Assembly: GCA_013041835.1 (NCBI GenBank)
Contig: JABDRH010000044.1
Location: forward strand, 1-17,690
From: Desulfatitalea sp.
GTDB taxonomy: Bacteria > Desulfobacterota > Desulfobacteria > Desulfobacterales > Desulfosarcinaceae
Direction of reading: 5' to 3'
Length of the DNA: 17,690 nucleotides
This document shows, piece after piece, positions 1-16,835 of this stretch. The notes under the pieces are model-generated. The model saw only the letters and a program-made list of their open reading frames with translations, made no database searches and had not been told where the DNA came from. How positions within the stretch are numbered: the first letter of the stretch is position 1; every line of letters starts with the position of its first letter. The position numbers and the translations under genes were made by a program.

Positions 1-657
1 GGTGTCTTCCAGGGGGGGCATGAGAAATTTTGCAAATACATCCAGATGGACCAGGGCATTGACCGCCGAGTCCCTGGATGAGGCGGCACGGAGCCGCTGG
101 ACCATGGCATCGTTTAGGCGTGCGACATCGTTATAGATGGCGACCAAACCGTCCATTCGCATATCCTGGGGCGTCAGGTCGTTTTCGGCAAAATAGCGTC
201 CTAGAAGATAGGTGGCCGCCGCACGCCACATGGTCTCGTCCTTGCTGGCAAAGGGCAGGTGAAAACGCGCCATAGGCTTGAAAAAATGGGTATGCGGACA
301 ACTGCTACCGGCAATGAGCAAGCCCATAAGGGAACTGAACCCCTCCTGGGCTGACGTATTGAGCATCACATGACGTTCGGCACTGATCACTTCAACGGCA
401 ATCTTGTCAAAAGACATCAATTGGTCAAAGTGACCCATGGCCGGCACCAAATTAACAGCCACCGGGCAATGATCGTGGGTTGCCGTACTCAGTGGGCAGT
501 GCCCGCACTGTTCATAGCCCAGCGCCGTCCAGAAAGGAGGCTGTGAATCAGCAGGATTGACCAGTTCGACGGTATGGGCATCGAAAACCAGATCATATTG
601 TGCCTTGCGCTGATCACGCAAGGTAAAGACATAAGTAATGGTAAATTGATCGCTCAT
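1..657 (-). CDS. Unknown Cys/His-rich protein, partial (C-terminus off the left edge)
   Basis: The minus strand is open without a stop from an ATG at 655-657 to the left edge, giving 219 residues that begin MSDQFTITYVFTLRDQRK. The start is supported by a GGAG nine bases upstream; an in-frame ATG five codons earlier has no such site. No signal peptide or membrane segment is visible. Four cysteines stand out: C51-x2-C54-x9-C64, with H53, H61 and H63 among them, and C120 in a CPHTH stretch. This arrangement could bind zinc or iron, but that is inference. The C-terminal half is helical and rich in Met and Ala. I do not recognise the family with confidence; it may be a DUF6901-type protein, which I recall only vaguely. 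It is divergent from the O-acetylation genes, so any functional link is unproven. Confidence 0.72.
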   Translation of the reverse strand, partial: MSDQFTITYVFTLRDQRKAQYDLVFDAHTVELVNPADSQPPFWTALGYEQCGHCPLSTATHDHCPVAVNLVPAMGHFDQLMSFDKIAVEVISAERHVMLNTSAQEGFSSLMGLLIAGSSCPHTHFFKPMARFHLPFASKDETMWRAAATYLLGRYFAENDLTPQDMRMDGLVAIYNDVARLNDAMVQRLRAASSRDSAVNALVHLDVFAKFLMPPLEDT

Positions 658-747
658 CCAATCATACTCCATAGGGAAATCGCGTCATCGGCCCGCTCCT
701 TGCGTCCGTATCCGCGTCTATTTTCACGTGCCGGTGTCGGCGGCAGC

Positions 748-776
748 TTGACATTTTAGCGCCTCAAACATATAAA
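748..776 (+). promoter_or_regulatory. Sigma70-type promoter for the O-acetylation operon
   Basis: TTGACA at 748-753 is a perfect -35 box. It is followed after exactly 17 bases by TATAAA at 771-776, which matches the -10 consensus in five of six positions. Transcription would start near 783 and leave a leader of about 100 bases before the acyltransferase start at 885. It lies in the 227-base divergent gap 658-884. I saw no comparably good promoter for the minus-strand gene on the left. Confidence 0.7.
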
Positions 777-884
777 CGCCCGGTTCTAGGCCGAATTCAC
801 AGCGTCGTGATCATCGTCTCACTCAGTCCGGATTCAGCCACTGGGTCGGCCAACCCGACAACTTAGCCGAAACTTAATGGAGCC

Positions 885-2315
885 ATGCTTTTCCCAAGCA
901 CCATTTTTCTGCTCGCTTTTCTGCCGGCCACCATCCTTTGCTATTACACTCAAAGGGTCTTGCTTGGCAACAGGTTGCGTAACACGTTGCTGTTGCTCTT
1001 CAGCTACATGTTTTACGCTTACGGTGCCGATGAGTTCCTCCTTTTGCTCATCGCTTCCACGGCGGCCGACTATCTGCTGGGTCGTCTGATTGGCAGACGC
1101 CGGAGCGCAAACAGGCTTTGGGTCGCCCTATCCCTGGTCATCAACCTGGGTTTGCTCGGTTATTTTAAATATGCAAATTTCATGCTCGATCAAATAACAC
1201 CCTGGCTGCACATCCTCGGTTTCGATCCCATTAACGACTGGAGCGGCATGATACTGCCCATCGGCATCTCATTTTTCACCTTTCAAAAGATCAGCTACAT
1301 TGTGGATGTTTATCGCGGTCAGACCCGTGCCATGGCGAATTTTGTCGATTTTGCCCTATATGTGGCGATGTTCCCCCAACTTGTCGCCGGCCCCATTGTC
1401 CGTTATAAAGACATCTGGGACCAAATCAACTTTCGCACCGAATCTTGGCATCGGTTTCACATGGGCGCCCTGCGCTTTTGTTGGGGATTGGCTAAAAAAG
1501 TGCTCATTGCCGATGCATGCGGCCAAGTCGCGGATGTGGTGTTTGGACTGGACGCCGCCGCAGTGGGTACGAAAGCGGCCTGGTTGGGCGCATTAACTTA
1601 CACCTTTCAAATCTATTTTGATTTTTCAGCCTATTCAGATATGGCCATCGGTTTGGCGCGCATGTTCGGATTCGAACTACGCGAGAATTTCAACCGCCCC
1701 TATGCGGCGATCAACATCACCGACTTTTGGCGACGCTGGCATATTTCACTGAGTACCTGGTTCAGAGACTACCTTTATATTCCTCTGGGCGGCAACCGAA
1801 AAGGCGCTTGGCGAACCGGCGTTCATTTGATGGTGGTGTTCGGCTTATGCGGATTGTGGCACGGGGCTTCGTGGACATTCATCGCTTGGGGCTTCTACCA
1901 TGGTGTCTTTTTACTCGCGGAACGGATACTGGGCTTGCGATCACCATCCCAAAAAACGTTGGCCCCCCTGCGGCGGGCCATCACGTTTATGATCGTCCTT
2001 TTCGGGTGGGTGTTGTTTCGTTCCGATACCATCAGCGAAGCCCTGCTCATTTTCGAGCGCATGTGCCTGCCAGTTCATGTGCCCTTACCCTATGCCCTGG
2101 CAGATGTCTTGCACGCCCGCAACTTGTTCTTTATATCGGTGGCGGTGCTGGCCACTCTCGGCGCAGCCAAGCTGCCCACCTGGGAAAAGATCATCACAAC
2201 GGCGACCCCCCTACGCACCGCAGCCGTTGTTGCCACCATTGCACTGCTGTTGCCCTATTGCACGATGATGATCATGGCCGGAGAGATCAACCCATTTATC
2301 TATTACAAATTTTAA
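885..2315 (+). CDS. MBOAT-family polysaccharide O-acyltransferase (AlgI-like)
   Basis: A 476-residue multi-pass inner-membrane protein of the membrane-bound O-acyltransferase family, close to the length of AlgI, DltB and PatA. The N-terminus (MLFPSTIFLLAFLPATI) is the typical start of this family. Conserved landmarks are FPQLVAGPIVRY in the middle, DFWRRWHISLSTWFRDYLYI around H286, and GLWHGASW with H326 as the counterpart of the invariant MBOAT histidine (AlgI His322). Such proteins pass acetyl or other acyl groups across the membrane to a periplasmic partner that modifies an exopolysaccharide or wall polymer. The start at 885 has a GGAG only two bases upstream, which is unusually close, but the protein alignment supports it. 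The next gene follows after 52 bases, is co-oriented, and encodes the expected AlgJ/AlgX-type partner, so the two are almost certainly one operon. The exact substrate cannot be read from the sequence. Confidence 0.95.
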   Translation: MLFPSTIFLLAFLPATILCYYTQRVLLGNRLRNTLLLLFSYMFYAYGADEFLLLLIASTAADYLLGRLIGRRRSANRLWVALSLVINLGLLGYFKYANFMLDQITPWLHILGFDPINDWSGMILPIGISFFTFQKISYIVDVYRGQTRAMANFVDFALYVAMFPQLVAGPIVRYKDIWDQINFRTESWHRFHMGALRFCWGLAKKVLIADACGQVADVVFGLDAAAVGTKAAWLGALTYTFQIYFDFSAYSDMAIGLARMFGFELRENFNRPYAAINITDFWRRWHISLSTWFRDYLYIPLGGNRKGAWRTGVHLMVVFGLCGLWHGASWTFIAWGFYHGVFLLAERILGLRSPSQKTLAPLRRAITFMIVLFGWVLFRSDTISEALLIFERMCLPVHVPLPYALADVLHARNLFFISVAVLATLGAAKLPTWEKIITTATPLRTAAVVATIALLLPYCTMMIMAGEINPFIYYKF

Positions 2316-2367: not shown

Positions 2368-5247
2368 ATGAGCGAATCCGATCAAATGAACCCCCCCATT
2401 AAGCGTTGCAAAACCCCACGGACACTGCATGCTTGCCTGATTTCCGTGTGTTTCGTCCTTTTATTAATACTACCGATGGCATTGGGCCTCTTTGGATGGG
2501 GCAACGCGCCGCAACACGCGGGCAGTCCCTCAAAAGCGCCCGAACTGGAAACGAAGGCCTTGCTCGAAGCCGAGTACTATCGAGCCTGGGCTGCGTATAT
2601 CAACTACCGCCTGCTGCAGATTCGACCGTTGACCCAAGCCAAACGGTGGATGGATTACCATTTTTTCAGCATGAGCGAAGCCGCCGACGTTCAGGTGGGT
2701 CGAAACGGTTGGCTGTTTAAGCGCCGGTCCACTGATGCACGACGCCGTGGCGCTTGCGACCAGACCCGGAGTCTGCAGCGCTTTCTGCTGGAATTGGAAA
2801 CCATTTCACATTTGGTTGAAAAATCAGGACGTTGCTTCGTGTTTAGCATTGCGCCCGACAAGGCCACGGTTTACTCGGAATATATCAGCGGTGCGTTTGC
2901 CGTGGAAGGGTGCGGCAAGACGTTCTATGATTTATTGATCGATGAACATGCCCTGACGCCTCTGAAATGCTTCGTACGGCTCGACCACCACTTGATGGCC
3001 GCCAAGGCATCGGGCCATCTGCTCTTCAATAAAACAGAGGCCGTCTGGAATGACCGGGGTGCGGCAGTGGTAGCCCCGGCATTGATACAAGCGATATTTG
3101 ATAATGGTCAGCGGTGGGCATCCGATCCAGACGATCTTGCATCGGTGTTGATGGACGGCGCCTCTTCGCCCCAGGCAAGACCGCATCAAAAGGAAGGCTA
3201 CTACCTTTCGGCCGCAATTATTTATGGCGGCAGCGCCATTCACCGTTTGCTGCCTCATTTGGCGGGCCCATTCAGCCGCATTGATGCCATCGTCACAGAT
3301 ACGATCCCCTCGCCGAATCATGCCGAGCACTTAAGTGCTTACGACGCCATGGTGATCATCGTGGATGAGTCTGAATTGCCGGACATGCGTTTTGACTTTG
3401 ACCGGCTATGCCGCATGCTTGATATCGAGGCACTGGCCGAGGCCCAAGACCGCGTGCCGCTTAAAACCATCTCAGCAGGGTCGAAACTTTCATTATCGCT
3501 CATTGACCAGGGCCTCGCCATAAAATCGTTGGGGGCCGAGGCGTTTTTCAATCTGCCGGCCTTGCCTGGCTCGGACGGTAAAACATTGCGAATCTTGGCT
3601 CTGGATATCAGTGCCGCCCATGCCGACCAACTTTCCTGGGTCATTGCCGGGAACGCCGATCCGACAGGCACAAAATCGATGCCGTCCAAACGCACGCAGC
3701 TTTTCCTGCCGCTTCCGGTGCAACCGTCGGTCCGTATGCGGATCAACCCCGGGAAAACCACCGGGCTGTTCCATCTGAACAGCATCAAAGTGCTTGAATT
3801 TGCCCACGGCATGCCCCACAGGGCCATGCCACCGGTTGCGCAAACCCGAACAGTTGCCGAAACCAATCCGCAAGCCCAGTCTGCCCGGAGCCGCCAAGCC
3901 GCTCCGCCGAAAAATCCGGCCAACGAGGCAGAACCGGCCGCCATCACCCTCAACGACTTTTATGACCATCAGATTTTTCAGCGCCAAGGAACCAGCTCTG
4001 ACACAATAATATCAGGCACTTATACCGGCATCCCCACAGGCATTGAAGCCCGTGTATTGCAGTACGACAACGGTGTACCAGTGACCCCTTGGCGCATGGT
4101 GGACAGCGCACCGGCCAACGGCGTGTTCATGGGGATACTCACCGAGGTGCCCCAAGGCGGTTGGTATCGTCTGCTCGTACGCTTCGCGGATCGACACGGA
4201 ACTTTCGCCCAGGGGGACGCCCGTTGGGGCATAGGCATTCTCGTGGGCTGCATCGGTCAATCAAACATGCGTGAGTGGTTCTACACGGGCGAGGCATTGC
4301 ACCCCCATTCCCTTCTGGCCCTGCATCGCCAGGGACACTGGTCCGCCATGGACAACCGGGGCAATGGCGCCATCGCCTTCGGCAACCGACTCATCGGCAA
4401 ATTGGGCATCCCTGTGGGGTTGTTGGATTATGCCGTCAATGGCTCGGGCTTACGAAAAGAAGCTGATTGGGGCATGGGGTATTGGAGCGATCGATCCGAA
4501 GACGCGATTTACCGGCAATTCATTCGGGGTGTGGCCGGCGCTGGCGGCCGCCTGGAGTATGTCGTCTGGATGCAAGGTGAAGCCGACGCAGCCCGGGCAA
4601 CCATTACCAAAAGCCAATACCGCAGTGCGCTGGCCCGCTTTATCGAGATGCAAGTGCGTGCGGAAATCGAAAATGCCGCCCGGCAGCCTTTTTTGCCTTT
4701 CCTCATTGTGGGCATGCCCAATCGACCCGTCGGGAAAGATGTCCCTCACCAAGCGATCAGGGATGCCCAGGTCGCTGTCACGCATGAAGTCCCGGAAACC
4801 TATATCGCCGCCATCAGTCAGGATTTAGACAACGCCGGCCGCCAGCATCTGGCTCCCGAGGCTTATACCGCATTAGGTTTGCGTACGGCCCAAACCGTAT
4901 TGTATCTACTGGACGAAGCAAGCAACTACCGTGGACCTTCGGTGGTCGGCGGGCAGCGTATCGCCGCCGACACTTTCGATGTGTACCTGGCCCACCGAGG
5001 TGGATTCGACTTTACACCTCAAGAAGCCATCAGCGGATGGCGGGCATCGGCGAATGGCAAGTTCCTGCCCATCAGCAGCGCCCGTCGTTATGACGCCCGC
5101 ACCATCAGAATTACCCTGTCAAAGCCGGCAGCCAACGCCGTTTTGCTATATTACCTCTACGGCGCCATGCCGGAAGCACAACAGGCCATCCATGACAACA
5201 GCACCATGGAACTGCCGTTGGAACCGGCAAAATTGAAAATCGAGTAA
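2368..5247 (+). CDS. AlgJ/AlgX-like SGNH domain fused to a SASA-type acetylesterase domain
   Basis: A 959-residue protein, about twice the usual AlgJ/AlgX length. Domains in order: a membrane anchor (about residues 21-42); an AlgJ/AlgX-like domain (about 60-380) with the landmarks GRNGWLF (111-117) and PDK (163-165); a beta-rich section (about 385-480); a Pro/Ala-rich linker (482-525); a beta-sandwich (526-625); a SASA/carbohydrate-esterase domain (about 626-875); and a C-terminal beta domain. The SASA part has GQSNM with nucleophile S632, WMQGEAD (734-740) and H827 in QHLAPEAY; the usual Asp just before that His is not obvious. In the AlgJ-like part the expected DTHWN motif reads EAVWN (224-228) and GDS reads GGS (287-289), so its Asp and His are lost although S289 remains. 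It probably acts in the periplasm, transferring or removing acetyl groups on a polysaccharide together with the upstream MBOAT protein. No strong ribosome site precedes the ATG. Confidence 0.88.
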   Translation: MSESDQMNPPIKRCKTPRTLHACLISVCFVLLLILPMALGLFGWGNAPQHAGSPSKAPELETKALLEAEYYRAWAAYINYRLLQIRPLTQAKRWMDYHFFSMSEAADVQVGRNGWLFKRRSTDARRRGACDQTRSLQRFLLELETISHLVEKSGRCFVFSIAPDKATVYSEYISGAFAVEGCGKTFYDLLIDEHALTPLKCFVRLDHHLMAAKASGHLLFNKTEAVWNDRGAAVVAPALIQAIFDNGQRWASDPDDLASVLMDGASSPQARPHQKEGYYLSAAIIYGGSAIHRLLPHLAGPFSRIDAIVTDTIPSPNHAEHLSAYDAMVIIVDESELPDMRFDFDRLCRMLDIEALAEAQDRVPLKTISAGSKLSLSLIDQGLAIKSLGAEAFFNLPALPGSDGKTLRILALDISAAHADQLSWVIAGNADPTGTKSMPSKRTQLFLPLPVQPSVRMRINPGKTTGLFHLNSIKVLEFAHGMPHRAMPPVAQTRTVAETNPQAQSARSRQAAPPKNPANEAEPAAITLNDFYDHQIFQRQGTSSDTIISGTYTGIPTGIEARVLQYDNGVPVTPWRMVDSAPANGVFMGILTEVPQGGWYRLLVRFADRHGTFAQGDARWGIGILVGCIGQSNMREWFYTGEALHPHSLLALHRQGHWSAMDNRGNGAIAFGNRLIGKLGIPVGLLDYAVNGSGLRKEADWGMGYWSDRSEDAIYRQFIRGVAGAGGRLEYVVWMQGEADAARATITKSQYRSALARFIEMQVRAEIENAARQPFLPFLIVGMPNRPVGKDVPHQAIRDAQVAVTHEVPETYIAAISQDLDNAGRQHLAPEAYTALGLRTAQTVLYLLDEASNYRGPSVVGGQRIAADTFDVYLAHRGGFDFTPQEAISGWRASANGKFLPISSARRYDARTIRITLSKPAANAVLLYYLYGAMPEAQQAIHDNSTMELPLEPAKLKIE

Positions 5248-10651: not shown

Positions 10652-13204
10652 ATGGAGGGTAAACAGCGATACCCGAACATCAGGACAAAGGGCTGCGGCG
10701 GTTTCTCACTCATTGAAATGGCCGTGGTGATTGTCATTATCGGCATCATCATCTCCATCGTGGCCAGCGTGCTGCCGTCGCTCATTGCATCATCCAAAAT
10801 CAAACAGGCCCAGGCCACACTTGAAAAGTTCGACTACGCCCTGCAGGGCTATCTAGCCGCCAATGGTCGCATGCCATGCCCGGATACCAATGGCGACGGC
10901 GCTCAAGACCGCATCCCCGGCACCACGCCGCCCACTGACGACACATGCGCCGCCTATGTCGGCACCATCCCCTATGCCACCATGGGTCTTTCGGCCGCAC
11001 TGGATCCCTGGCAGGAACCCGTACGCTATGCCGTTTACGAAACCTTGGTTCAGACCCAAATCAGCGGCGTATGCGACACTGCACCGCCCTGCACCCAGTG
11101 CCTGAGCTATTTCATCACCAATCCCAACGCAGCGTATTTGCGCACCACCGACGGCGTCGTCAGCACCAATCAGGCCTATCTTATCGCCAGTGGCGGAGCC
11201 AAGGACATGGATGGCGCCGACGGCTTTTTCGACGGCCGCAATGGCGACGGAACCGTTGAAGAATTCGAAATTCCAAATAAAATCGTTGACGCCGGTTATG
11301 ACGACCTGCTGCGCGCCGCATCTTTTGCTTACCTGCAAGGCCGATTGTGCTCCGGCACCCTGGGCAGCCCCGGTGGCGGTGGGGGAACCTCGGAATCCCC
11401 CGCCGACGGTAATTGCACCGACAGCGCGGACAATGACGGCGACGGCTTGACCGACTGTGCCGACCCTGGCTGCGCCACCGATCCCGGCTGCAGCGGCGGC
11501 AGCCTGAGCATCACCACCACCACCGTTCCCAGCGGTGTCTTGTCGGGCACCTACATGGCCACCTTCAGCGCCGGCGGCGGGACCACACCCTATGACTGGC
11601 AATTGACCGGCAACGGAGGATTCTCCGATTTCTCCATCAACGCGGCCACCGGCACGCTCACCGGCACCCTGGATCAATGCCCCGGCAACTACACCGTCTC
11701 CGTGGCCGTGGGGGACAGCACACCACCGGGTTCGGGCGGCCCCTTCACGGACAGTCAATCCTACACCGTGCAGGTAACCGGAAATCTGAGCGTGGCGTGC
11801 ACCAGCACACCGGGCAGCGCCATTACCTGGACCAGCCCAACCCAAACGGAAACCTTCGCCGCCAATGGTAGCCGCCTGGGCAGCATCAACTGGTCGCTGA
11901 ACACCGGCGGCGCGACCGGATTCGTGCTCTACACGACCGGGCCCGACACCTGCAGCCTGCGTAAAAACGGCAGCACGGCCCCCGGCACCTACAGCTTCAC
12001 CCTGACGGCCACCGACAGCACATGCGGCACCAACAGCGACAGTTTCACCTTTGACGTGACGGTCACCGCCGGCGGCGGCATGACACCGGGGGCCATCGAC
12101 ACCGTGGTGGACACCGAATATTTCAGCGACAATGAGTGCTACACACCGAGCATCTTCCACACCAGCGGCGACGTCTACGGATTCGTCTTCAGGGGAACTT
12201 TATGGCCCTTTTATTCCGATGACGGCTGGACCCGCACCATTGACATCGACAGCGGCGGCGCCATCGGCACCTCTACACAATACGAGCAATTCGACGGTAC
12301 AGCCTACGCACCCGATGTTGTCCGCGTATCGGGCGACATCTATGTCGTGGCCTTCGAAAGCAGCGGCAACAACGGCCGCATCCGAACCATACGCATCGAC
12401 GGTAGCGGCGCAATCCAGAATATCGACGGGTCGGATACATTCAGCAACAACAGCGCCGACCCATCCATTGTGCCGGTAAACGGCGAATTCTTTGCCATCG
12501 CCCACAGCGGTGCAGGCAATGACGGATATATCACCACGGTTCAAATCGCCGCCAACGGCACCATCCTCGATGCGAGTGTGGACAGCCTGGAATTCGACAC
12601 CTCCAACGGGGAGCAACCCGACCTGATTCACGTTGCCGGCGACGTCTTTGCCGTGGCCTACCGGGACAGCGGCGGCGTTGGCGTCGTGCGCACCATCATC
12701 ATCGACAGCAACGGCAACATCAGTCCGCCTTCTGGCGCGCCGGCGCCCGGCTATGCCTTTGCCGTGCCATTCGAGGCGAACGATTGCACGGTACCGGATA
12801 TCGTCCATGTCAGCGGAAACATCTTTGCCATCGTCTACCAGGGTCAGGACGACGACGGCTATATCACCACCGTTGAGATCGCCGACGATGGACAAATCGC
12901 CGATACAGTGATAGACACGCTGGAATTTGACGCCACCAACGGCATCACACCGGTGGTGGCCGCCGCCGGCAACGGCATCTTCGGCATCGCCTATCGCGGC
13001 CCGGGAGACGACGGCGTCTTTTGCACCGTGCTGATCGATGACAATGGACAAATAGGCAGCGCCGTGCAGGCGAGCATCATCTTTGAAGCAGCGGACTGCT
13101 ACGAACCTTCGATAGAGGCCATGGCCAACAACTTGTTCGCCATCGCCTATCGCCGCCCGAGCACCGGCAACCGGGGAGTGGTGGCCACCATTTCCTTACA
13201 GTGA
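10652..13204 (+). CDS. Type IV pilin-like protein with Ig-like domains and a seven-repeat beta-propeller
   Basis: An 850-residue predicted surface protein. Residues 1-17 are a basic leader ending in Gly; the prepilin peptidase cut would leave F18 first and E22 as the +5 glutamate (G|FSLIEMAVVIVIIG), followed by the hydrophobic pilin helix. The pilin-type globular part (to about 235) contains the pattern NGRMPCPDTNGDG. A Gly/Ser hinge leads to a Ca-binding-like segment (254-280, DNDGDGLTD between Cys pairs), then two Ig-like He_PIG-type domains (284-377 and 378-475). From 482 to the end seven repeats of 46-60 residues share a core like DVFAVAYR...DGYITTV.I...G.I and suggest a seven-bladed propeller. 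Such a protein may cap a pilus or pseudopilus and bind a surface or ligand. No pilus assembly genes are nearby. The ATG has no clear ribosome site, but no alternative precedes the pilin motif. Confidence 0.88.
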   Translation: MEGKQRYPNIRTKGCGGFSLIEMAVVIVIIGIIISIVASVLPSLIASSKIKQAQATLEKFDYALQGYLAANGRMPCPDTNGDGAQDRIPGTTPPTDDTCAAYVGTIPYATMGLSAALDPWQEPVRYAVYETLVQTQISGVCDTAPPCTQCLSYFITNPNAAYLRTTDGVVSTNQAYLIASGGAKDMDGADGFFDGRNGDGTVEEFEIPNKIVDAGYDDLLRAASFAYLQGRLCSGTLGSPGGGGGTSESPADGNCTDSADNDGDGLTDCADPGCATDPGCSGGSLSITTTTVPSGVLSGTYMATFSAGGGTTPYDWQLTGNGGFSDFSINAATGTLTGTLDQCPGNYTVSVAVGDSTPPGSGGPFTDSQSYTVQVTGNLSVACTSTPGSAITWTSPTQTETFAANGSRLGSINWSLNTGGATGFVLYTTGPDTCSLRKNGSTAPGTYSFTLTATDSTCGTNSDSFTFDVTVTAGGGMTPGAIDTVVDTEYFSDNECYTPSIFHTSGDVYGFVFRGTLWPFYSDDGWTRTIDIDSGGAIGTSTQYEQFDGTAYAPDVVRVSGDIYVVAFESSGNNGRIRTIRIDGSGAIQNIDGSDTFSNNSADPSIVPVNGEFFAIAHSGAGNDGYITTVQIAANGTILDASVDSLEFDTSNGEQPDLIHVAGDVFAVAYRDSGGVGVVRTIIIDSNGNISPPSGAPAPGYAFAVPFEANDCTVPDIVHVSGNIFAIVYQGQDDDGYITTVEIADDGQIADTVIDTLEFDATNGITPVVAAAGNGIFGIAYRGPGDDGVFCTVLIDDNGQIGSAVQASIIFEAADCYEPSIEAMANNLFAIAYRRPSTGNRGVVATISLQ
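12095..13204 (+). repeat. Seven tandem propeller-type protein repeats
   Basis: Repeat boundaries in the pilin-like protein are approximately 482-541, 542-591, 592-642, 643-700, 701-752, 753-804 and 805-850. Each unit has an acidic/aromatic opening (LEFD, TEYF, IIFE), then P-[DS]-I, a Gly, then F-A-[IV]-[AV]-Y, a turn with DG, a strand like ITTV.I, and G.I. The units have diverged in DNA sequence, so this is an old duplication. Seven is a common blade number. Confidence 0.8.
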
Positions 13205-13343
13205 TATCGTAGGTCGCTACGGTTATCCGTGAGTCTGAACAGCACGGTCGTAAGCGCATTTTGGATGCCGAAGCGCACCAATGAAACCACCACGGCGAAT
13301 CTCGCTGTTGAAACCGATCAAGAGACAGTCCAATGGATACGCC

Positions 13344-15122
13344 ATGACGCCCTTTGAATCAGTTAAGGCCTTTTACGAGAACAACCTGCCCAACGCGACC
13401 CGGAAAGGTCATCACCTGGTGGCGCCCTGCCCCTTTTGCGCACAACACGACCGTGACAAGCCGACGCACCTTGCGGTTTACCTGAATCCGGACAGCTATT
13501 TCCGGGGCCACTTTCGCTGCCTGAACGAATGCGTGCCCGCAGGATTTCACGTGCATTTCGGACGACTGATGGGCATCGACGGCCACCGGATACCTGGATT
13601 CGATCCCGAAGCCGAAACGTACACCTTGAATTTGAGCTACCCGTCGCGCCACCTGGGATCTGAATTGGACAAATTCTCAACGCTGATGGGGCCGGATCAG
13701 CAAGATTACTTCACCCGCTTCGGCGTGACGGCGCGGATTTGCAAACAGATGCGCATCGGCTTTAACGGACGCTATCTGGTTTATCCCTACTTCCAGGAAA
13801 ATGGCCACGCCTACGCCGCGCGCTGTGTGTTGCCCGAAAAGGAGGAGAACTATTTCTTTCACGGCAACGAGGCGTTTTTCACAGGTGAAGCAGCCGTTTA
13901 CAACACACCGGAGATCGGATGCTGCCACGGCGGCGCCTTGTTCATCACCGAAGGCGAACTGAACGCATTGATCCTCAAATCACTGGGATACCCGGCCGTT
14001 GCCGTACCAGCCGCCGACGCGCTGGCCGAAATATCTTCCGAACGTTTGGCCTGCATCGAACACCTTTTTCTTCTGATAAACCATTCCCCTGAGGGATATG
14101 CAGCAGCGCGGTCGCTGGCCTTGCGCATGGGGTTTAGAGCCCGCATTTTATCCTGGCCGGCGCGGATGCCCCGGGGAGAATGCCTGGCCCATCTGGCGGC
14201 CGACCCGCAGATGGAAGTCAAAAAAGAAGTGCTTCACATGATCGCAACGGCCAAAGCCTTCTCCCCTTTTGCCTCACCGAAAAAAGAGCATGACCGTTTC
14301 ATGGCGCTTTTGGAAAAAGAGAAGGGAAAAACACTGCCGGGGCTGACCACCGGATTCGTACAACTGGACCGCCACATGGAAGGTCTGCGGGGCATCAACA
14401 TTCTGGGCGGTCCGCCAAAGGCGGGCAAATCGTGCTTTTTCATGCAGATTTCCACCGAAGTGGCCCGCAGGCAGGTGCCGGTCATTTACTATGATTTTGA
14501 AAACGGACGACAGAAGATCTACCTTCGCACGCTGGTGCGCCTGGCCGGCCTTTCCGAAAAGCAAATACGCAGCAAATCGCTCGATGCCAAATCGGCCGAC
14601 GCGCTGGCGCAAGCGCAAACGCAACTGGCCACACTACTCCACTACTTCCGCGTGGTCAACGACCGTCAACTGACCGCTGATACCATGCGCCGCCACATCG
14701 ACTTTATAAAACATGAAACCGGCAAAGACGACCTGCTTATCGTAGTAGACAGCCTGCACAAGCTGCCCTTCAAGGACCTGACCGAACGACGCACTGGCAT
14801 CGACGCTTGGTTGCGCCACCTGGAAGCAATCCGCGACGAACACCGCGCCTGCTTTTTGGTGATCAGCGAGCTAAGCCGCGGCAAAGGCGGCGGATACGGT
14901 GAAAAACCCGACCTGAGTTCGTTCAAGGAGTCGGGCGATATCGAATACAGCGCCGACAACGCCCTGATCCTCATGCCCGACTGGGACCCCATGTCGCCCA
15001 CCCTGAGCGAGCAACGCAAAAACACCCTTTGGATGGTGGCCAGCCGGGAAACCTCCCCCGGTCGGGTGGGGCAATATCTGCTGGCATACCCCTTCTGGCG
15101 CTTCACCGAAGTGGCAACATAG
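13344..15122 (+). CDS. T7 gp4/Twinkle-like zinc-finger, TOPRIM and DnaB-type helicase protein with degenerate primase site
   Basis: A 592-residue protein from the ATG at 13344; a second ATG at 13281 would add 21 residues without similarity or ribosome site. Zinc-finger-like residues are C29-x2-C32 and C59-x3-C63. A TOPRIM-like region follows: FITEGELNAL holds E203 and E205, but the Asp usually after EGE is N207 and the DxD motif reads INHSPEG (N246, S248). The KD-type third motif also reads differently. The C-terminal RecA/DnaB-type helicase looks intact: Walker A GGPPKAGKS (K362), Walker B LLIVVDS (D469), the ISELSR motif, and SGDIEYSADNALIL near the end. It probably unwinds or binds DNA in the cytoplasm but is unlikely to prime. 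It may derive from a phage or plasmid, though no other phage gene is near. It lies 139 bases after the pilin-like gene. Confidence 0.87.
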   Translation: MTPFESVKAFYENNLPNATRKGHHLVAPCPFCAQHDRDKPTHLAVYLNPDSYFRGHFRCLNECVPAGFHVHFGRLMGIDGHRIPGFDPEAETYTLNLSYPSRHLGSELDKFSTLMGPDQQDYFTRFGVTARICKQMRIGFNGRYLVYPYFQENGHAYAARCVLPEKEENYFFHGNEAFFTGEAAVYNTPEIGCCHGGALFITEGELNALILKSLGYPAVAVPAADALAEISSERLACIEHLFLLINHSPEGYAAARSLALRMGFRARILSWPARMPRGECLAHLAADPQMEVKKEVLHMIATAKAFSPFASPKKEHDRFMALLEKEKGKTLPGLTTGFVQLDRHMEGLRGINILGGPPKAGKSCFFMQISTEVARRQVPVIYYDFENGRQKIYLRTLVRLAGLSEKQIRSKSLDAKSADALAQAQTQLATLLHYFRVVNDRQLTADTMRRHIDFIKHETGKDDLLIVVDSLHKLPFKDLTERRTGIDAWLRHLEAIRDEHRACFLVISELSRGKGGGYGEKPDLSSFKESGDIEYSADNALILMPDWDPMSPTLSEQRKNTLWMVASRETSPGRVGQYLLAYPFWRFTEVAT

Positions 15123-15217: not shown

Positions 15218-16759
15218 CTACAACTGACTTTCCAACGGCAGGAGTCGATAAAAAAAATCGGAGATACGCTGCCCGAAACCGCGCGCCGGCTGCCTGGAGA
15301 CCGTACCGTCGCTTGATTCCCAGCGCAATTGATCCTCCGCGTTGAGATAGACCCGCCAGGCGTTGTCCGGCGACATGATGTCATCGAATTGGTCGGCAAG
15401 CTGGCCGCAAAGGCCCGGCGATTCGATATAAAGACCGTTTTCGGTGTTGAGATCAACCGCGCGCGGGTCCAGGTTCAACGAACCCACGAAACAACGCTCG
15501 CGGTCGCCTACGATAGCCTTGACATGCAGGCAAATAAACCTGGCGGTCACTGGCGGCACATCGATGGTGCTGCGAAACGCTTCACACGGTTGGTGTTTCA
15601 TCTCATACAGCTCGGCGCCCGCCGCCAAAAGCCGACGCCGGTACTTTTTATAGTGGCTGTGGGCTGCAGTGTGATTGTTTGCCCCCATGGCAGGCGCCAC
15701 AAAGGTCACTTTTACGCCTTTGGCCGTTGTTTCCGCCAGCTCCTCAAGCATCTTTGCGGATGGAATCAGGTAGGGGGAGACAAAAACCAATTCGTCCCGA
15801 CTCGGTTCGGCCATGTAATCAAGCATTTCGGTCAGTCGGTATGCATCTTGCCCGATGCGCACGGGCGCGTCCTGAATAAAATAGGCTCGCCCAGGCATCA
15901 ATGCACCCGAAAGCCGCTGGAATTTCTGCTGCCAATCCCTGGGGGCCAACGGGTATGCGGCAAGCGTTGCTCGATGATCAGCCAAAAAAGCAACGGTTTG
16001 TTCGCGGATCGCTTCCAACTGCTCAGCACTCCCCTTTTCCGACATGGCGCTGCCGGGGTAGGAAAGGTCGCTGTTCCAAAAGGTGTCGAACGCTTCTGAA
16101 AGCTCCGCCACCACCTGACCGACCACCAGCACATCCAAATCGCGAAAATTGTACGTTTTGCCCAAACCGAAGTATTCATTGCCGATATTGCGTCCGCCGA
16201 CAATGGCCACACGGTTGTCCACCACGAACAGCTTGTTGTGCATGCGTCGGTTGAGCTCATCCATGTTGGTCAGGAACTCAACAACACCGCCCACTTTGCT
16301 GCGAACGCGGACCGGGTTGAAGATTTTAATCTCAAAGTTCGGGTGCCGACAGATGCTGGCGATACTTCGCCCCGTGGGCGCAAAGACCATATCGTCCACC
16401 AGAAACCGCACCCTTACCCCACGATCAGCCGCATTTAAAAGCCGGTCAAACAGCAGGAGGCCGGTCTCGTCATCCTGCCAAATGAAATACTGAACATCGA
16501 TGGATGCCGTCGCTTCATCGGCGAGCGCCAGCCGCCAATTAAAAGCCTCTGCGCTTTCGGGCAGAGCCAAAAAGCCGGAAATGTCGGCCGGATGGAGGTC
16601 GGCAAATCGCTTGGAAAGGGCGGCCGCTCGCCCATGTTCCGCGGGCGGTAAGGCTTGAACTGCCGGCACCGGAGGCGGTGGATAGGGAAGGGTTGCGCAA
16701 CCGGTGGCCAAAATGATAAGTACTGCCGTCAAAATCGAAAAGTATCGTTTGATCTGCAT
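15218..16759 (-). CDS. Phospholipase D-family lipoprotein, cardiolipin synthase C-like
   Basis: A 513-residue predicted lipoprotein with two HKD phosphodiesterase motifs. The N-terminus MQIKRYFSILTAVLIILATGC has a lipobox with the acylated C21 and is followed by a Pro-rich spacer. Motif 1 is HNKLFVVD (H174, K176, D181) followed by GGRNIGNEYF; motif 2 is HVKAIVGD (H412, K414, D419) followed by GSLNLDPRA. This matches the ClsC (YmdC) group, in which phosphatidyl transfer makes cardiolipin; hydrolysis of phospholipid is an alternative. The start at 16757-16759 is preferred because GGGGGG lies three bases upstream, whereas an ATG five codons earlier has none. It is convergent with the helicase gene, 95 bases apart, and downstream of parC on the same strand. 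Confidence 0.92.
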   Translation of the reverse strand: MQIKRYFSILTAVLIILATGCATLPYPPPPVPAVQALPPAEHGRAAALSKRFADLHPADISGFLALPESAEAFNWRLALADEATASIDVQYFIWQDDETGLLLFDRLLNAADRGVRVRFLVDDMVFAPTGRSIASICRHPNFEIKIFNPVRVRSKVGGVVEFLTNMDELNRRMHNKLFVVDNRVAIVGGRNIGNEYFGLGKTYNFRDLDVLVVGQVVAELSEAFDTFWNSDLSYPGSAMSEKGSAEQLEAIREQTVAFLADHRATLAAYPLAPRDWQQKFQRLSGALMPGRAYFIQDAPVRIGQDAYRLTEMLDYMAEPSRDELVFVSPYLIPSAKMLEELAETTAKGVKVTFVAPAMGANNHTAAHSHYKKYRRRLLAAGAELYEMKHQPCEAFRSTIDVPPVTARFICLHVKAIVGDRERCFVGSLNLDPRAVDLNTENGLYIESPGLCGQLADQFDDIMSPDNAWRVYLNAEDQLRWESSDGTVSRQPARGFGQRISDFFYRLLPLESQL

Positions 16760-16835
16760 TTGCCCCCCATTCATAAATTGTTGCCGCTTTTAGTTATGCT
16801 CTGGTTTTTGCCCTTTGTCGTCCTAATCAAAATCC

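Follow-up and report, generated by a model that had tools for sequence, protein, structure and literature searches.

A Desulfatitalea fusion of a degenerate AlgJ/AlgX-type half and a SASA-type half, encoded beside an MBOAT acyltransferase, as a candidate system for O-acetylation

MBOAT-SGNH pairs have been described as relays in which an acetyl group moves from a tyrosine to the SGNH partner's serine. According to the relevant part of PMC12148441, PatA auto-acetylates the tyrosine of its C-terminal FXYXXF motif and the acetyl group then passes to the serine of PatB; AT3-SGNH fusions such as OatA are covered there as well, and the relay logic from acyl-tyrosine to SGNH serine would be shared with the pair described here. 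This pair lies in the window, a 17,690-nucleotide stretch of DNA from Desulfatitalea sp. (contig JABDRH010000044.1), where an MBOAT acyltransferase gene is directly followed by a gene for a 959-residue fusion protein. The first half of the fusion resembles AlgJ and AlgX and the second half is a SASA-type domain. In every fusion aligned, the first half is without the catalytic Asp and His together, and the second half conserves a Ser, a His and an oxyanion Gln. The MBOAT motifs are intact. This combination suggests that catalysis may have been handed over from one domain to another within a single polypeptide.

The locus resembles the AlgI/AlgJ/AlgX system in that an MBOAT is paired with an AlgJ-like SGNH module carrying an N-terminal helix and an AlgX-like CBM part. 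The predicted fold matches AlgJ and AlgX, and the P-x-K and Trp signatures are retained. It differs in that the SGNH core is without Asp-x-His in all aligned rows, a SASA domain has been added, and one partner protein stands in place of AlgF, AlgJ and AlgX. The features expected of an MBOAT-SGNH pair are an MBOAT with a catalytic His, an FXYXXF motif and a Ser and His in an SGNH partner, and all were found (Ser632 and His827 in the partner); the Asp and His that this class and the ALGX family call for in the AlgJ-type domain of the adjacent partner were not. Unlike PatA/PatB (and Bacillus cereus PatB1), the fusion has its predicted catalytic serine 343 residues past the first nucleophile position, within a second SGNH domain. 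OatA joins a membrane domain to an active SGNH domain, whereas the present fusion joins an apparently inactive SGNH module to an active-looking one. The SASA half carries the GQSN nucleophile motif of SASA/CE6 enzymes, with the oxyanion Gln and QGE. It departs from the SASA/CE6/CE20 esterases (XAC1771, mammalian SIAE, NanS and Fl8CE20_II) in being joined to an AlgX-like module and linked to an MBOAT, in having Gly824 for the block V Asp, and in the clade-specific residues Glu636, Arg786 and Gln826.

Fusions were compared in two sets. The alignment has 121 rows, equal to 120 distinct proteins (the query corresponds to database entry P0001), and these are the 120 listed of 316 matches. The genome set holds 22 fusions from whole genomes, that of the window and 21 others, 5 of these 21 being in the alignment as well. 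The features of the pair, in window coordinates, are as follows.

885..2315, + strand: MBOAT acyltransferase gene (476 residues), directly upstream of the fusion gene; Pfam MBOAT, 117.1 bits
1860..1862, + strand: MBOAT His326, in WHG, predicted catalytic; WHG in 22/22 of the genome set, role taken from PatA as described in part of PMC12148441
2295..2312, + strand: MBOAT C-terminal FIYYKF, which fits the FXYXXF acyl-shuttle motif as defined in a passage of PMC12148441; Tyr473 is the predicted acetyl carrier
2368..5247, + strand: ALGX-like/SASA fusion protein (959 residues); reading frame open for 959 codons, Pfam matches, database gene call
2419..2490, + strand: predicted helix, residues 18-41, a likely membrane anchor; helix from the secondary structure of the model, membrane role suggested by its hydrophobic sequence
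2683..3402, + strand: SGNH-like core of the AlgJ/AlgX/PatB1 type, residues 106-345, now without the catalytic Asp and His
3037..3045, + strand: E224-A225-V226 where Asp-x-His is expected; HMMER against AlgJ and profile-profile alignment with unfused relatives
3232..3234, + strand: S289, at the AlgJ-type nucleophile position; Ser in 18/121 rows
3436..3807, + strand: CBM-like jelly roll as in AlgX, residues 357-480
3808..3939, + strand: linker, residues 481-524; predicted local distance difference test score (pLDDT) < 50 at 491-519, length 8 to 177 residues across aligned rows
3940..4227, + strand: beta-sandwich ahead of the SASA domain, residues 525-620; structure model, XAC1771 aligned over 526..957
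4228..4917, + strand: SASA/CE6/CE20-type SGNH domain, residues 621-850, better conserved than any other part of the fusion
4261..4263, + strand: Ser632, predicted nucleophile in GQSNM, with Gln631 predicted in the oxyanion hole; 121/121 rows and 22/22 of the genome set, roles from part of PMC9487903
4273..4275, + strand: Glu636, invariant in the fusion clade; Glu in 0/18 unfused relatives
4579..4581, + strand: Glu738 of the SASA block III QGE motif; 121/121 rows and 21/22 of the genome set (Ala in L030)
4837..4848, + strand: block V G824-R-Q-H827; His retained, the Asp of the usual DxxH replaced by Gly
4918..5244, + strand: C-terminal beta domain, residues 851-959; structure model and XAC1771 alignment

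Both domains of the fusion, as the earlier note had read it, are recognised above their curated cut-offs in the open frame. Pfam ALGX (PF16822) matches residues 108-245 with 28.6 bits (cut-off 26.5) and SASA matches residues 667-845 with 54.7 bits (cut-off 24.8). Where translation starts is uncertain: K12, R13 and C14 stand opposite gaps in 117-118 of the 121 rows, and the gene call in the database (P0001) is shorter than the 959-residue frame by 36 residues. In the predicted structure, the N-terminal half has the fold of AlgJ, AlgX and PatB1, with the CBM part as in AlgX, and the SASA half has that of solved SASA/CE20 esterases, in the CE20 layout of an SGNH domain flanked by two beta domains. 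Median identity to the query is 60.4% in the SASA domain as compared to 35.4% in the N-terminal core.

The loss of Asp and His from the N-terminal half is a property of the whole fusion clade. In the HMMER alignment with Pseudomonas putida AlgJ (4o8v), T-D-T-H-W of AlgJ pairs with T-E-A-V-W of the fusion. In an hhalign comparison with 26 unfused AlgJ/AlgX-like relatives (E 1.3e-46), E224, V226 and S289 fall on the Asp, His and Ser, which these relatives retain in 24/26, 26/26 and 26/26 cases, respectively. The relatives are from the same phylum and include the window genome's paralogue; 25 have an MBOAT in the fetched stretch and one, L058, has none recognised there. Two candidates were left out, L061 (no blastp match to the N-terminal half at 1e-3) and L063 (the same protein as L046). 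Among fusions, D224 and H226 occur together in 0/121 rows (D224 alone in 2, H226 alone in 12), Asp-x-His stands at the motif position in 0/22 of the genome set, and no histidine of the N-terminal half is conserved in at least 90% of the 121 rows. These alignments agree with the earlier note, which had placed E224-A-V226 at the Asp-x-His motif and G-G-S289 at GDS, and profile alignment found no intact Asp-His-Ser triad. The reading of S289 needs one correction: the nucleophile position is other than Ser in 103/121 rows, and the residue is thus kept in the window protein and not family-wide.

Signature residues of AlgJ outside the triad are retained, P163 and K165 in 120 rows each and W227 in 119; the P-x-K and Trp are described as fold-supporting in AlgJ in part of PMC4148444. 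Chance or the decay of a single gene is ruled out as the origin of the missing site, since the loss is common to all aligned fusions. Two D-x-H-W strings were considered as intact motifs and rejected: that in L075 begins nine residues ahead of the motif position, where the sequence is S-A-V, and that in L081 sits in the SASA half. When the N-terminal half was used alone as a query, 2 proteins were matched. The canonical pair of the window genome itself, an MBOAT with an AlgJ-like partner bearing TDTHW and HDSF (L045, 1277-3894, contig C38), serves as an internal control.

The SASA half has a plausible catalytic site, judged from its residues, consisting of Ser632, the oxyanion Gln631, Gly692, QGE and His827. 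GQSNM, QGE (E738) and H827 are present as the earlier note had listed them, and Q631, S632 and H827 are each found in 121/121 rows. The absence of the block V Asp had gone unnoticed. G824 takes its place in 121/121 rows and 22/22 of the genome set, so that the Asp-x-x-His of SASA/CE6 enzymes is not found. Among unfused SASA relatives the Asp is present in 17/18, these being 18 of 28 relatives drawn from 94 homologues, and in 22/24 on a wider check. This check used all 94 homologues, of which 86 covered block V: Asp824 was seen in 21/23 rows of <44% identity and in P0180 at 45%, and Gly824 in the other 62/86, many of which are probably fusion pieces at contig edges. NanS and SIAE are reported in passages of PMC12313940, PMC9063846 and PMC9487903 to be without the block V Asp too. 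E738 was considered as the catalytic acid and dropped, because QGE orients the oxyanion Gln as described in part of PMC9487903. Glu636 is a candidate for the residue now supporting His827.

Block II Gly692 aligns with Gly199 of Fl8CE20_II. The residue two ahead of His827 is Arg825 and a large insertion is not apparent in the SASA half; eukaryotic CE20 members are described in part of PMC12313940 as likewise without one. P0180, a 675-residue SASA protein without an ALGX assignment, is 42% identical to the C-terminal half over 98% of it and is possibly an intermediate between the esterases and the fusion clade. The fusion at L030 (7781-10993) reads QGAAD, with Ala for Glu738; since that assembly is incomplete, an error or a gene in decay may explain the change.

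The MBOAT gene is separated from the fusion gene by 52 bases. An MBOAT gene lies on the same strand, directly upstream, in 22/22 fusion loci with upstream sequence (the window and 21 others). Three loci were left out of this count: L035 and L087, where the fusion is cut by a contig end, and L083, which is a 286-residue fragment resembling the N-terminal half (G586). All 22 MBOATs have WHG and a C-terminal end of the form FIY[YF][RK]F. Both motifs being intact, the prediction is that these MBOATs rely on a serine located outside the membrane.

Few spare partners were found in the 24 other genomes holding the fusion or a piece of it. The fusion is the sole ALGX match in 20/24; G586 has only the 286-residue fragment, and no ALGX match was found in G587 and G094, whose fusions run off contig ends. 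One MBOAT was found in 20 of the genomes, two in G172 and G141, and none in G586 and G094. Among the genomes with a single ALGX match and a single MBOAT are four whose assemblies consist of one or two contigs (G590, G580, G582 and G589).

We regard these results as moderately favouring a route in which acetyl would move from CoA to Tyr473 of the MBOAT, from there to Ser632 of the SASA domain and then to a glycan, while the AlgX-like half would serve for docking and for holding the glycan. Under this proposal, the MBOAT and the fusion protein would form a two-gene system for cell-envelope O-acetylation. The MBOAT would load acetyl from acetyl-CoA, by means of His326, onto Tyr473 of FIYYKF. The N-terminal helix would anchor the fusion to the inner membrane, and the fusion would act in the periplasm. 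Its AlgJ/AlgX-type half, having lost its chemistry and kept its fold together with a CBM-like glycan-binding domain, would dock on the MBOAT, and Ser632 of the tethered SASA domain would take the acetyl and pass it to the polysaccharide, in a reaction of transfer rather than hydrolysis. The hand-over of catalysis put forward in the earlier note is supported to this extent by sequence and structure model, and favoured by the MBOAT in 22/22 loci and the sole ALGX match in 20/24 genomes. A more specific version is offered tentatively, and we would sooner doubt than adopt it: a SASA/CE20-type O-acetyltransferase would be fed by the acyl-tyrosine of the MBOAT, the AlgJ-type domain would be a dead docking adaptor, and Gly824 with Glu636, Arg786 and Gln826 would mark the rewiring of an esterase into a transferase. 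Neither such an architecture nor a SASA-type O-acetyltransferase was found in the literature searched, which lacked most subscription papers.

Several observations weigh against transfer through Ser632. SASA/CE6/CE20 enzymes are described as esterases in passages of PMC9487903 and PMC12313940; XacXaeA is a de-O-acetylase in the introduction of the latter and a sialic acid-O-acetyltransferase in one of its methods passages. The block II Gly is Ser or Asn in PatB and OatA, hindering water (PMC12148441, in part), unlike in the SASA half, which keeps the hydrolase-like Gly692. As the block V Asp is missing, the activity of the SASA half is itself not certain. Two of the 26 unfused relatives are also without the Asp of the AlgJ-type site, so its loss alone is not special to fusions. 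In the strongest rival reading, for which the esterase descriptions and Gly692 speak, the SASA half is a deacetylase that edits or trims acetyl groups. Acetylation of the glycan would then still be the task of the MBOAT and the degenerate AlgX-like half, without a fusion serine relay, for example directly from acetyl-tyrosine to a sugar bound by the dead domain together with the CBM-like part. At 8/22 loci the fetched stretch includes a gene of a cluster represented by a PgaB-like polysaccharide deacetylase, which makes such polymer editing plausible. We nevertheless consider this rival unlikely: it needs an unknown transfer step, where the two MBOAT pathways worked out in PMC12148441, Dlt and PatAB, both use an SGNH serine, a conserved pair that both put acetyl on and took it off would achieve nothing without regulation, and 20/24 fusion genomes have no other ALGX match.

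That last count also speaks against the idea that a stand-alone SGNH enzyme encoded elsewhere transfers the acetyl, with the fusion as a scaffold and esterase accessory. Three further observations speak against transfer by the fusion and for such an enzyme or spare partner. G172 holds a second ALGX match, Lipase_GDSL_2 proteins occur in 14/17 fusion genomes, and the window genome has a second MBOAT with an adjoining canonical AlgJ-like gene on contig C38. However, this AlgJ-like protein adjoins an MBOAT of its own and 3/17 genomes are without a Lipase_GDSL_2 match, and we rate the idea as improbable. A DHHW search gave no match in the 17 genomes, but its controls were silent too. Continued transfer by the N-terminal half through a relocated or partial active site is more doubtful again. 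S289 is kept in the window protein, and according to part of PMC4148444 the esterase activity of AlgJ in vitro fell by only about 80% when triad residues were replaced by alanine; yet a loss across the clade is ill-suited to a working site, and neither a well-conserved N-terminal histidine nor a constant Ser remains to support one. Least probable of all is an ordinary modular esterase beside an MBOAT, with the N-terminal half a diverged AlgX of no special meaning. Some SASA enzymes do bear appended binding or hydrolase domains (PMC9487903, in part), but the constant gene order, the single MBOAT tree group described below and the site loss in all aligned rows are unlike coincidence. Acetyl transfer by the tethered SASA domain is the reading we retain, with acetyl removal as its main rival.

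The fusion was found in 14/194 genomes of the order (in G094 by the C-terminal half only) and in 12/30 genomes of the family (in G587 cut), besides the fragment in G586. Among 395 genomes sampled from the phylum, only the window genome has the fusion, and 18 other matching genomes match the N-terminal half only. A scan of genome contigs for relatives returned L022 only. The window genome was placed in the genus of G579, holder of a Desulfatitalea tepidiphila protein (Desulfobacterales). When 47 MBOATs were placed in a tree, one branch set those of the 22 fusion loci apart from the rest (support 90/59; 100/99 when G538 is included). The partner of the MBOAT in G538, the nearest relative in this tree, is an unfused 375-residue protein with Asp-Ser-His-Trp and ADSF, which is as expected if the fusion arose from a canonical partner. 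The simplest account is a single fusion to a canonical partner followed by loss of the site, although support for excluding G538 is modest.

Neighbours were compared over the fetched stretches of the 22 loci, with families assigned from one representative per gene cluster. Members of a Ser/Thr kinase cluster were found at 10 loci, of a PP2C phosphatase cluster at 8, of a TPR/LysM protein cluster at 6 and of an FHA/cyclase protein cluster at 5; none of these clusters, nor the PgaB-like one, is present in the window. Seven loci from one genus have plsB just downstream of the pair, six of them with a gene for topoisomerase IV subunit A upstream. Examples of recurring neighbours are seen at L025 (127-4476) and L027 (1225-3724). 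These neighbours give a hint that, in some members of the clade, an amino-sugar polymer is modified in a regulated manner.

In the window, the genes flanking the pair are on the opposite strand, so that the MBOAT and the fusion form a two-gene unit. One flanking gene encodes a DUF6901 protein (Pfam) and the other, recognised by eye only, is presumably CTP synthase. No alginate synthesis gene was recognised among the window proteins run through Pfam and NCBIfam. Farther along, an 850-residue protein (10652-13204) has a type IV pilin-like N-methylation motif, then Ig-like domains, and C-terminal repeats noted by eye. In a 613-residue protein (13281-15122), the second half contains a DnaB-type helicase domain at about residues 334-567; the protein is reminiscent of phage primase-helicases. 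A Phospholipase D-type protein on the reverse strand (15218-16774) resembles cardiolipin synthase, with scores under the curated cut-offs.

In an entire group of bacteria, the partner domain no longer has its Asp and His, and the same polypeptide includes a second esterase domain. If this second domain transfers acetyl, the fusion would show catalysis handed over inside an acyl-relay machine, with docking separated from chemistry, and the SASA/CE6/CE20 esterases would gain a transferase. Some of the proteins named sialate O-acetylesterase in these bacteria may then be polysaccharide acetyltransferases.

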